In this document: positions 11,518-22,059 of the stretch, in pieces
Position numbering within the stretch: the stretch's first letter is position 1
Layout: the number at the start of each line of letters is the position of its first letter
Origin: Pseudarthrobacter siccitolerans
GTDB taxonomy: Bacteria; Actinomycetota; Actinomycetes; Actinomycetales; Micrococcaceae
Direction: 5' to 3'
DNA: 64,000 nucleotides
Assembly: GCF_030823375.1 (NCBI RefSeq)
Contig: NZ_JAUSXB010000001.1
Coordinates: 3,534,001-3,598,000, forward strand
Made by a program: the position numbers and the translations under genes
The notes under the pieces: generated by a model
Seen by the model: only the letters and a program-made list of their open reading frames with translations
Database searches by the model: none
Told to the model about the DNA's origin: nothing

Positions 11518-12513
11518 TCAGCGCCAGAACTCCGCGAGCTGGCCTGCAAGGGCTTTGCCCTGCTCGAAGCCTGCCCGGGCGGCGCGCGGACGCAGCGAAA
11601 AATCCATCGCGTTGGCACCAAACATGTGCTCCGCGCTACTGTCCGGGAAGATCGTCTCCACTTTGCTGCCGTAGGCCCGCAGCTCGTCGACCTGCGCCGC
11701 GAGCTGTACGCCCCAATCCAGCGGCGCCAGTGATCTCCCACCGAACGGGGACAGCACCAGCACCCTCCCGTAGCCGGCTGCCAGATCCGCATTCTCGGCA
11801 TTGGAGCGGTAGCCGCCGTCGATATATTTGTTGTCCCCGATCCTGTAGGGGAGCCCGCTTGAGCAGCTGGCGGCTACGGCGTCCGCCAGGTCGATTCCGC
11901 TGCAGCGGTCGAATACTGCCGGTTGGCCGGTACGGGCGTCGACCGCCGTGATGAGCACTGTCCGCTGCGGCCAGTCTTGGTTGGGCAGCCGCGACGCGAC
12001 GGTGGCGCGCCACTGTGTTTGCCAGGAGCCGTCCGACGCCGCCTCCATGTCCAGTGCCGCTGCGCCCATTCTCCGGCGCATGTCAGCCGCATCCTCGGAG
12101 GAGGCGATGATTTTGTTGATCCTTTCCAGATGGTCCACCACCGGCTTGGTGCGCACGCCTCCGCGGTCGGATCCAACTGGAACGGGCCGCTGTTGGGGCG
12201 CAGCGGCAAGGATGGCGGCCAGCAGCTCCGTTGGTGTTGCGCCGGCTATCTGGGCTGCGGCGGTGGAGCCGGCCGACGTTCCGATGGTGAGGTCGGCTGT
12301 GGTGACGTCCAGCCCGGCGTCGTAGAGCCCGGCCACGACGCCGATCAGCCAGGCATTGCCTGTCGAGCCGCCGCCTCCGAGGACCAGCGCCCGTCCGCAC
12401 GCGGCGTGCGCCTGCTTTGCGGCGTCCGCCCGCGGCTGATCCTGGCCGGAGCCCGGCGGCTCGGAGGCCGTCGTCGAAATGGAGTGCAGGGGTGAAGAAG
12501 ATGATGAGTTCAT
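11518..12513 (-). CDS. Patatin-like phospholipase family protein
   Basis: A 331-aa protein with the complete patatin catalytic set: the oxyanion-hole glycines in ALVLGGGGSTGNAW, the nucleophile serine in TIGTSAGSTAAA (G-x-S-x-G) and the catalytic aspartate in YIDGGYRSN. Patatins are acyl hydrolases of phospholipids or other lipids. About 40 Ser/Pro/Ala-rich residues precede the domain and no clear secretion signal is seen, so it is probably cytoplasmic or membrane-associated. The ATG at 12513 follows AAAGGC. Upstream in-frame sequence to 12819 overlaps a small ORF and the promoter region and is probably not translated. It is divergent from the aminotransferase-like gene at 12790. The substrate is unknown. 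Confidence 0.9.
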   Translation of the reverse strand: MNSSSSSPLHSISTTASEPPGSGQDQPRADAAKQAHAACGRALVLGGGGSTGNAWLIGVVAGLYDAGLDVTTADLTIGTSAGSTAAAQIAGATPTELLAAILAAAPQQRPVPVGSDRGGVRTKPVVDHLERINKIIASSEDAADMRRRMGAAALDMEAASDGSWQTQWRATVASRLPNQDWPQRTVLITAVDARTGQPAVFDRCSGIDLADAVAASCSSGLPYRIGDNKYIDGGYRSNAENADLAAGYGRVLVLSPFGGRSLAPLDWGVQLAAQVDELRAYGSKVETIFPDSSAEHMFGANAMDFSLRPRAARAGFEQGKALAGQLAEFWR

Positions 12514-12560
12514 GGGAGTCGCCTTTCGCGAATTGCCTGTCGCGGCGCTCCCGGTCGCGA

Positions 12561-12620
12561 CTAGTTCTGTCGCGCGATCGTGGACTGCAGGGGAGCGCCC
12601 ATTGCGGGTACTGCGTTCAT
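12561..12620 (-). CDS. 19-codon small ORF or leader peptide upstream of the patatin gene
   Basis: A start ATG at 12620 is preceded by AGGAGGTGA at ideal spacing, one of the strongest ribosome sites in the window. It is followed by 19 codons and a TAG at 12563-12561, then 47 nt to the patatin ATG. The sequence just before and at the start (GAGTCCCATGAAC) is nearly repeated at the patatin start (GACTCCCATGAAC). It may be a leader peptide coupling translation or a relic of an earlier start. Function cannot be inferred from so short a peptide. Confidence 0.45.
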   Translation of the reverse strand: MNAVPAMGAPLQSTIARQN

Positions 12621-12789
12621 GGGACTCACCTCCTGCCGATAGGTCACGATCACCCGAAAAGTACCACGCCGACGAAGGGTGCACAACGGCATCCTGCCGG
12701 GGCCGCCATGCGGCGATAAAATGTGGGCACGTCATGCGCGTCATCACGCAAAGGTCTCGGCGGCTTTTCTGCGGTGATCGGAGCAAATC

Positions 12790-13962
12790 ATGAGGACCAG
12801 GCCAGCCCGCCTTGAGCACGTGGCCGGATTCAACATTGACGTCGTGGCTGCGGCTGCGGACCGGAACCCTGACATGCTCCGGCTTGAGAACCTCGACACG
12901 GACCTTCGGCCGCCCGCACCTGCCATTGCGGCGTCACGCGCCGCCGTCGGCCTCGACTCCGCCAATTCGTACCTGCCGTTCACCGGCCAGCTGGCTGCGA
13001 AGAAGGCGATCGCCAGCCGGGTTGCTGCACGGAGCGGTATCAACTATGACCCCGAAACGGAGGTCGTGGTCACAGCGAGCGACGGCGACTGCCTCCTGGA
13101 CGCGCTCCTGGCACTCAGCGATCCCGGCGACGAAGTCATCCTCACGGATCCCACCTACGCAGGCATGCTCAACCGTGTACGCCTGGCCGGTGGCGTGCCG
13201 CGGCTGGTCCCCATGGCGGTTCGGGACGGCGAATGGCGCATGGATCTCGATGCCCTGCGGAGGTCCGTCTCACCGCGCACGCGGGCCGTCTTCCTGCAGA
13301 ACCCGTCTTTCCCTTCCGGCTACGTCCTCAGTCACGAAGAATGGTCCGCTGTCACATCCCTCTGCATCGAGAATGACCTGTGGCTGCTGTACTGGTCGTA
13401 TATGGAGGGCATCCTGTACGACGGGCGGAAGGTGATCAGCCCGGCGTCGTTTCCGGGGATGCGGGAGCGGACAGTGATCATGGGAACTGCGTCGGTGGAG
13501 CAGCGGATGATCGGGTGGCGGGTTGGATGGATCGTGGCGCCTGCCGCCGTCATGCCCGACCTTTCAGTGGTGCATATCTACAACGGCATCACTGCGGGTG
13601 GAATTGCGCAGGCAGGACTGATCGCAGCGCTTGAGGCGGCCGACGACGGCCTGGCCGAATGCGTCCTTGAATGGCAGCATCGCCGAGACGCCGTCACTGC
13701 TGCCCTTGAGGGCTATGCAATGGTCCCGGCGGCCGGTGGCTGGTCCCAGATCGTGGATACGGTGCAGCACGGCGTGGAGCCGGCGGACGTTTCGCGGTCC
13801 CTGCTGCAGCACGGCGTCGCGGCGACAGCCATGACGGGCTGGGGCGGGGAAATCGCGAACCGTCACCTCCGTCTGGTTTTCAGCAATGAGCCGGTGGAAC
13901 GGCTGGAGCTGCTGGGTGACAGGTTCCGCGCCGCAATGACCGACCTCGGCGCCCGCGTCTAA
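12790..13962 (+). CDS. Aminotransferase class I/II-fold protein lacking the PLP-binding residues
   Basis: A 390-aa protein that aligns along its whole length with fold-type I aminotransferases: YLPFTGQLAAKKAIA (61-75), LSDPGDEVILTDPTYAGML (109-127), the NPxNPTG-like NPSFPSG (171-177), GWRVGW (242-247) and a late HLRLVFSN. The residues that hold or use pyridoxal phosphate are changed. The Schiff-base lysine (SK motif) is Val236, the aspartate that pairs with the pyridine nitrogen is Trp202, the following tyrosine is Met205, and the second Asn of NPxN is Phe174. The two substrate-carboxylate arginines appear kept. It is therefore unlikely to be a working aminotransferase and may be a ligand-binding or otherwise repurposed protein. 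It faces the patatin gene across a shared promoter region. Confidence 0.9.
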   Translation: MRTRPARLEHVAGFNIDVVAAAADRNPDMLRLENLDTDLRPPAPAIAASRAAVGLDSANSYLPFTGQLAAKKAIASRVAARSGINYDPETEVVVTASDGDCLLDALLALSDPGDEVILTDPTYAGMLNRVRLAGGVPRLVPMAVRDGEWRMDLDALRRSVSPRTRAVFLQNPSFPSGYVLSHEEWSAVTSLCIENDLWLLYWSYMEGILYDGRKVISPASFPGMRERTVIMGTASVEQRMIGWRVGWIVAPAAVMPDLSVVHIYNGITAGGIAQAGLIAALEAADDGLAECVLEWQHRRDAVTAALEGYAMVPAAGGWSQIVDTVQHGVEPADVSRSLLQHGVAATAMTGWGGEIANRHLRLVFSNEPVERLELLGDRFRAAMTDLGARV

Positions 13963-21114: not shown

Positions 21115-22059
21115 ATGAGCTCCGTCCGAGACCGCGTGGACCTGTGGATCAAGCCTTATGCCGCGCTGTGGCTGACCATGATCATCGGCGGGGCAGTGGT
21201 TCTCACCCTGGCCCTGCTGGGCGCCGAGGTGTATTCCAACGTGGTGGATGACGAAGGGCTGGCCAACCTGGATATTCCTGCCCTGGAATACTCACAAACC
21301 CTGCGGAGTCCGGACGTGGATGCCTTCGTCACCGGGTTCACCAACGTGGGCGGCGGAATCGGAATGCCCATCTTCGCCAGTATCCTCACCGCGTGGCTGA
21401 CATTCCTGAGCCGGACCTGGCGCCCCATCGTCCTGGTGGGCGGTGCAGCGCTGGTTTCCACCCTCGCCACGACGCTCGGCAAGCGGCTGGTAGGCAGGAC
21501 CCGTCCCGACCACTCAGAAGCAGTCCCGCCGTACGAGTCAACGCCATCCTTCCCGAGCGGCCACACCCTGAATACCACCGTGGTGATTGGTGTCCTGGTC
21601 TACATCACGTGCCTGCAGTTCCAGATCCTCTGGGCCAGGATCACGGCCATCACCGCCGGCGTCATCTTCATCATCGCGATGGGATTGAGCCGCGTCTTCC
21701 TGGGGCACCACTGGCTCACAGACGTGATGGCCGGGTGGTTCCTCGGGCTCGCCTGGGTGTGCATGGTGATCCTGGCCCACCGGCTGTTCCATCTCATCCG
21801 GAGGCGGGAGCACGCCGGGCCGGCCCCCACGTTCGAGCATCCCGTCATCCGCGAGGACCATACCGGCGAGACCCAGCAGGGCACGGACACTAGGGCAGGG
21901 TACGACGGCGGCACCTCAGGAAGGAGCGACGGCGGCACCTCAGGAAGGAGCGACGGCGGCACCTCAGGAAGGAGCGACGGCGGCACCTCAGGAAGGAGCG
22001 ACGGCGGCACCTCAGGAAGGAGCGACGGCGGCACCTCCCGGTCCGGCACAGGCGGTTGA
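21115..22059 (+). CDS. PAP2-family membrane phosphatase with tandem-repeat tail
   Basis: A 314-aa protein with about six transmembrane helices and the three PAP2 motifs: KRLVGRTRP, PSFPSGH and SRVFLGHHWLTDV. These phosphatases act on lipid phosphates such as phosphatidic acid or undecaprenyl pyrophosphate at the outer membrane face. GGGAGG precedes the ATG at a good distance. The last about 50 residues are an unusual hydrophilic tail made of the octapeptide DGGTSGRS repeated five times and a partial sixth, encoded by a 24-bp DNA repeat. The tail is not part of the PAP2 fold and is probably variable between strains. Confidence 0.93.
   Translation: MSSVRDRVDLWIKPYAALWLTMIIGGAVVLTLALLGAEVYSNVVDDEGLANLDIPALEYSQTLRSPDVDAFVTGFTNVGGGIGMPIFASILTAWLTFLSRTWRPIVLVGGAALVSTLATTLGKRLVGRTRPDHSEAVPPYESTPSFPSGHTLNTTVVIGVLVYITCLQFQILWARITAITAGVIFIIAMGLSRVFLGHHWLTDVMAGWFLGLAWVCMVILAHRLFHLIRRREHAGPAPTFEHPVIREDHTGETQQGTDTRAGYDGGTSGRSDGGTSGRSDGGTSGRSDGGTSGRSDGGTSGRSDGGTSRSGTGG
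21904..22037 (+). repeat. 24-bp tandem repeat inside the PAP2 gene
   Basis: Five identical 24-bp units plus 14 bp of a sixth, in frame with the PAP2 gene, each coding for DGGTSGRS. Identity between units is complete, which points to recent expansion or ongoing slippage. Confidence 0.95.

Follow-up and report, generated by a model that had tools for sequence, protein, structure and literature searches.

What does a protein do when it keeps the fold of an aminotransferase and lacks the residues that hold the PLP cofactor? This question is raised by a gene of Pseudarthrobacter siccitolerans, located in the stretch of 64,000 nucleotides analyzed here (the window; contig NZ_JAUSXB010000001.1, positions 3,534,001 to 3,598,000). 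Its product has no Lys at the Schiff-base position, a residue described in a review as absolutely conserved in all active aminotransferases (PMC9309667). It probably binds or transforms its target by a route that has yet to be described. The features of the gene are as follows, in window coordinates.

12780..12783, + strand: GGAG, likely ribosome-binding site judging from the sequence, 6 bases 5' of the ATG
12790..13962, + strand: Lys-less aminotransferase-fold gene, 390 amino acids plus stop (Pfam match and structure model)
12880..12903, + strand: RLENLDTD motif, residues 31-38, family marker (conserved columns)
13081..13089, + strand: acidic loop D98-G99-D100, a phosphate-binding Gly/Ala loop in relatives; first turn of model helix 98-109
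13309..13311, + strand: F174, replacing the NPxN Asn (alignments, homologue columns)
13393..13395, + strand: W202, replacing the pyridine-N Asp (alignments, homologue columns)
13399..13401, + strand: residue 204, Tyr here, Trp in Leu202 relatives and Ala in 83/85 Lys-bearing rows
13402..13404, + strand: M205, replacing the Tyr three residues past the Asp (alignments, homologue columns)
13495..13497, + strand: V236, replacing the Schiff-base Lys (alignments, homologue columns)
13501..13503, + strand: Q238, switched position beside the Lys loop (column counts, 256 vs 85 rows)
13519..13521, + strand: R244, kept; aligned to the PLP-phosphate Arg of active enzymes (alignments; PMC9309667)
13870..13872, + strand: R361, kept; aligned to the alpha-carboxylate Arg (alignments, column counts; PMC9309667)

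Gene and fold

The reading frame, the coordinates and the four replaced residues were confirmed against the sequence. The protein matched PF00155 over residues 47-368 (108.2 bits, E 6.5e-31), and this match, together with a confident structure model, is that of the fold type I architecture; the initial annotation had already regarded the motifs of the fold as kept. It had also placed Val236, Trp202, Met205 and Phe174 at the four PLP-contact positions, and alignment to solved aminotransferases agreed, with V236, W202, M205 and F174 at the Lys, Asp, Tyr and Asn positions, respectively. According to the same review (PMC9309667), class III is the only exception to the conservation of the Asp and of the carboxylate Arg among aminotransferases, E. 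coli residues N183, Y214 and R254 hold the cofactor, and R254 is assigned to the PLP phosphate.

A MocR-type regulator was considered and discarded: there is no N-terminal GntR DNA-binding domain, and Pfam matches along the 390 residues were to two aminotransferase families only. No PADLOC family matched the protein at E 0.001. A divergent patatin-like ORF lies at 11518-12819 (- strand; PF01734, 44.1 bits). In its longest form this ORF runs into the beginning of the studied gene, and its translation therefore probably starts at a more internal position; in PADLOC it gave a weak match to a phospholipase effector (18.2 bits), with no stretch significant alone. Elsewhere in the window, the ORF at 21115-22059 (+ strand) carries a C-terminal run of SGRSDGGT repeats.

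Homologues with and without the lysine

Homologue searches were limited to scoring the 8000 candidates that had the most words in common with the query, of which the best 120 were listed. In the set formed by the window protein and its 120 best listed homologues (at least 57% identity), position 174 was Phe in 120/121 and position 202 was Trp in 118/121, and Lys was found at 236 in none (P0028 is gapped there). Close homologues with Lys236, the first finding that could have told against the initial annotation, were thus not seen among the 120 best listed. Lys236 did appear in more distant family members, at about 45-57% identity (85 rows), and its loss is therefore derived within a family. When L036, a Lys-less protein from the Nitriliruptorales, was used as query, the 120 proteins listed, L036 included, also lacked Lys236, and most of them carried Leu202, Met236 and Met174. 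The replacements are conserved across a large family, which supports this part of the initial annotation. One nearly identical relative, P0029 (99% over 73% of the query), switches reading frame towards its C-terminus, through either a genuine frameshift or an error in sequencing.

Family loci were further collected from contigs of one genome per species by pattern searches near ENLDTD and the 202 strand (240 loci, 80 of them kept). Lys236 is encoded at many of these loci; identical copies of a locus were discarded (121 reduced to 104). The final rows, 256 Lys-less and 85 Lys-bearing, are a sample and are not independent, since the searches scored 8000 candidates, listed 120 and kept 80/240 loci. 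P0028 (gap at 236), P0029 (shifted frame), P0122 (same as L036) and L001 (own copy) were left out, as was L042, a gene in two frames that fell below the score limit.

Positions that switched with the lysine

A position was defined as switched when no residue exceeding 3% in one group also exceeded 3% in the other. With the 256 and 85 rows unthinned, seven of the 390 positions were switched (98, 99, 100, 202, 204, 236 and 238), with a few rows breaking the rule (e.g. Glu100 in 6 Lys-less and 27 Lys-bearing rows). The list varied with the sequence set used, and a smaller set (137 and 85 rows, reduced at 90% identity to 90 and 57) yielded positions 98, 99, 174, 202, 207, 236 and 359. Residue counts in the larger set were the following.

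Position 98: E162 D93 Q1 in Lys-less rows; G65 A20 in Lys-bearing rows
Position 99: G256; L57 T26 M1 C1
Position 100: D250 E6; A35 E27 N16 S6 T1
Position 202: W134 L118 F2 G1 V1; D59 N26
Position 204: mostly W, L, F, G or I; A83 S1 V1
Position 238: Q223 W31 K1 L1; Y67 L10 F4 H2 Q2

Judging from the alignments and the review, positions 98 and 99 would belong to the phosphate loop, 202 and 204 to the strand contacting the ring, and 236 and 238 to the Lys loop, with 100 as a neighbour. Helix 98-109 of the predicted structure begins at residue 98, which is probably the location taken by the phosphate in active enzymes. The initial annotation mentioned neither the acidic 98-100 loop nor the alternative Trp204 of relatives. 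Enrichment of switched sites at the cofactor site gave p 1.5e-5 (4/6 sites, 236 left out), a value that is only illustrative because the contact list, drawn from general knowledge, was compiled with the first switched list already known.

Trp was present at 202 or 204 in 254/256 Lys-less rows vs. 0/85 Lys-bearing ones. It occupied 202 only in 130 rows, 204 only in 120, both in 4 and neither in 2 (P0073 and P0108); that two positions are able to supply it suggests that a Trp is required in that place. Position 359 was a conserved His in most Trp202 rows and Tyr or Phe in most Leu202 rows, and the position of Tyr61 was Trp in 142/256 Lys-less rows.

All four PLP contacts are replaced in the window protein, as initially annotated, and they did not disappear in a single step, since most Lys-bearing relatives already lack Tyr and Asn. 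Position 205 was Met in 84/85 of the latter and position 174 was Met in 82/85 (Ile in 3/85), which indicates that the loss of Asn and Tyr mostly preceded that of Lys; Tyr205 remained in 6/256 Lys-less rows. Separately, the position of the pyridine Asp was Asn in 26/85 Lys-bearing rows (e.g. L034, L038, L048 and L055). A Schiff-base Lys that had migrated elsewhere was ruled out: the highest Lys frequency in any column of the 256 Lys-less rows was 0.55, and no replacement was conserved enough, so that another Lys serving the Schiff base, the second finding that could have told against the initial annotation, was not seen in these rows. Both the loss of the PLP-site residues and its conservation are much firmer than any functional reading.

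Selection on the gene

NG86 dN/dS values between the window gene and nine relatives ranged from 0.08 to 0.23, vs. 0.09 to 0.16 for eight pairs of Lys-bearing genes. These substitution rates support purifying selection on the window gene and, with the conserved residues at 174, 202 and 236, make chance or decay an unlikely source of its replacements. An origin as a degenerating or non-functional copy, an explanation already disfavoured, is hardly credible: the different C-terminal frame of P0029 and two stop-flagged Lys-bearing copies, one of which (L116) showed a stop inside the gene, could be cited for it, against an open frame, low dN/dS, the same replacements across a large sequence set and a confident model. 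Decay and misalignment were both rejected on the conserved replacements, dN/dS and the structure model. The initial view of an intact frame with selected changes agrees with the open frame, with Phe174 and Trp202 in the closest set and with these dN/dS values.

History and distribution

With the key columns excluded, trees were computed from 88 rows (quick tree, which returned a long-outgroup-branch warning) and from 71 rows (careful tree). The Lys state changed once on both, with support for the Lys-less branch of SH-aLRT 98 in the quick tree and only 89/92.9 in the careful one; on these grounds a single origin of the Lys loss is likely, yet not firmly shown. Trp202 rows did not form one clade in the careful tree, although a single clade was not rejected (p-AU 0.5); Asn202 rows did not form one clade either (p-AU 0.045).

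Within the genus, matches at E 1e-80 were found in 21/206 genomes, one in each, 7 being Lys-less (that of the window included) and 14 Lys-bearing. No Lys-bearing member accompanied the Lys-less form in any of the 7 genomes; with 7 and 14 of 206, zero overlap is expected by chance too, so this count does not show mutual exclusion. Typing by Lys-loop motif gave no call for 6/34 loci (L117, L118, L122, L126, L140 and L141). In the class sample (394 genomes), 8 genomes matched besides that of the window, and in the phylum sample (396 genomes), 2 did; a class-level search around the genome of a Lys-less relative gave a match in 3/66 genomes. A Lys-less copy with 76% identity was located on the 1 Mb plasmid StoSoilB13-2 of Arthrobacter sp. 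StoSoilB13 (L142, 5001-6170). This patchy spread, together with changing neighbours, suggests transfer of a single gene.

Genomic context

When ORFs were compared by eye, no neighbouring gene was common to the window and all six Arthrobacter contexts (L127-L132), among which G099 and G016 share one site and G108 and G210 another. Likewise, no adjacent aminotransferase was recognized from the first residues of the ORFs in the window region or in the six contexts. The genome of the window gave four hits, three of them ordinary aminotransferases at 28-29% identity, and none of the four was a Lys-bearing paralogue of the family. The gene seems to stand alone.

Among 79 family loci, an ornithine aminotransferase gene (above the TIGR01885 cut-off) lay upstream of the Lys-less L036 and of the Lys-bearing L050. 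A proC gene was found near L039, and genes resembling gamma-glutamyltransferase near L045 and, scoring below the cut-off of the model, near L031. These neighbours could hint at a link of the family to ornithine/proline metabolism, although too sparsely for a claim to be made. A divergent GntR/FCD regulator gene adjoins the Lys-bearing gene at 18 Burkholderiales loci (e.g. L061, 9303-9959, - strand), and a gene similar to this regulator occurred in 20/79 family loci. The GntR-type regulator and the amino-acid genes, found near some Lys-bearing relatives, say nothing direct on the Lys-less gene.

This context bears on whether the protein might be a non-catalytic subunit paired with an active aminotransferase, by analogy with SPT1-SPT2 of serine palmitoyltransferase, where SPT1 offers a fold-type I precedent without the Lys (PMC6148460). 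The three ordinary aminotransferase hits of the genome and the upstream gene at L036 would fit, and a partner encoded elsewhere may exist; but the lack of an adjacent aminotransferase and of a Lys-bearing family member in the 7 genus genomes, along with the replacement by Trp of Tyr61, which reaches the phosphate of the other subunit in active dimers, makes such a pairing quite improbable.

Conserved sites and possible functions

Despite the switch, 58 sites were more than 95% identical in both groups (90 Lys-less and 57 Lys-bearing rows, thinned at 90% identity), including R31, E33, N34, D36, D38, Y123, R239, R244, N265, W318, W351 and R361; the first five were identical in 85/85 rows. The LRLENLDTD motif and the shared sites are present in the window protein, which is thus a member of this family. 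R361 was Arg in 255/256 Lys-less and 84/85 Lys-bearing rows. The initial annotation had counted two Arg as binding the substrate carboxylate: R361 stands, while R244 aligns with the Arg of the PLP phosphate and no second carboxylate Arg was identified.

Non-covalent binding of B6, put to some unusual use, might be expected from the retention of R244, Y123 and R361, and B6 enzymes with His in place of Lys do exist (ColD). It is nevertheless very unlikely, as almost every Lys-less row has a bulky hydrophobic residue instead of the Asp, and 255/256 carry an acid in the phosphate loop.

The reading we favour, with a probability of roughly 0.45, is that the window protein would be a PLP-free, stand-alone ligand binder, sensing or sequestering its ligand, rather than a transaminase, the last step of this reading being the weakest. 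A class I aminotransferase would have given rise to a PLP-free descendant, in which Trp at 202/204 may stand in for the pyridine ring and the acid opening helix 98-109, near R244, for the phosphate, allowing the fold to stand without vitamin B6. The retained R361, N34, Y123, W318 and W351, with the RLENLDTD loop, could then bind a small carboxylate, for instance an amino acid or a keto acid. A cofactor side that was rebuilt and a substrate side that was kept fit carboxylate binding without B6. The fold, the 256-vs-85 switch, the distribution of Trp and the single change of Lys state would all point to such a binder; the 58 shared sites, purifying selection, and the lack of a replacement Lys, of shared neighbours and of a Lys-bearing paralogue in the searches above are further points in its favour, as is the absolute conservation of the Lys in active aminotransferases stated in PMC9309667. 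Against it would count 50 polar or aromatic sites conserved above 97% in the 256 Lys-less rows, a level also suiting an enzyme, as well as the 6 rows keeping Tyr205, the 2 rows without the Trp and the modest branch support in the careful tree.

The same conservation raises the possibility, with the odds against it, of an enzyme with cofactor-free chemistry acting on an amino-acid-like substrate, its site formed by the acidic 98/100, the Trp, E237, R239, R244 and R361. Several of these polar residues are strongly conserved in the 256 Lys-less rows (E237 in 253, R239 in 256, D100 in 250 and an acid at 98 in 255), and a gene that stands alone and is patchy in the genus (7/206 genomes) would suit an enzyme. 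Yet R239 and R244 are equally conserved in Lys-bearing relatives, and E237 largely so (72/85), and they are therefore no marker of a new site; His359, moreover, gives way to Tyr or Phe in most Leu202 rows. A fuller version, rather unlikely, would have a B6 lineage turn into a cofactor-free enzyme whose own Trp and acidic loop replace the ring and phosphate of PLP, with the substrate side serving a new reaction; Lys/Asp, Lys/Asn, no-Lys/Leu202+Trp204 and no-Lys/Trp202 would then be surviving stages of that change.

Comparison with known systems

No paper describing the LRLENLDTD family was recognized among the matches listed, a search mostly outside subscription journals. GntC, gamma-hydroxyarginine cyclodehydratase (NF041364), was the best or second-best NCBIfam match of the window protein (189.6 bits) and of five relatives (194-243 bits); this assignment was rejected, as the scores are far below the curated 415-bit cut-off and the window protein lacks the PLP Lys. 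Compared with class I aminotransferases of PLP fold type I (PF00155; e.g. P. horikoshii 1gd9 and M. tuberculosis Rv0858c 2o0r), it shares the fold and the alpha-carboxylate Arg (R361), but it has neither the Schiff-base Lys nor the pyridine Asp, Asn and Tyr contacts, and its phosphate loop is acidic. With the Lys-bearing LRLENLDTD relatives (e.g. L049, L038 and L085) it has in common the motif, the 58 sites and mostly Met205, whereas these carry Lys236, Asp/Asn202, Gly/Ala98, mostly Ala204 and, in most cases, Met174. Automatic aminotransferase names on such sequences are probably wrong.

Among fold-type I proteins, absence of the PLP Lys has a precedent in a partner subunit, SPT1/LCB1 (PMC6148460), compared here by description. 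SPT1 occurs in eukaryotes as a subunit whose catalytic partner is known, whereas no partner was found for the window protein among family paralogues or adjacent genes. The present case is instead an apparently stand-alone bacterial gene, in a family showing natural stages of cofactor-site loss, among them Lys-bearing members with Asn at an Asp that, according to PMC9309667, is conserved except in class III. With such stages at hand, how an enzyme leaves its cofactor becomes directly testable.
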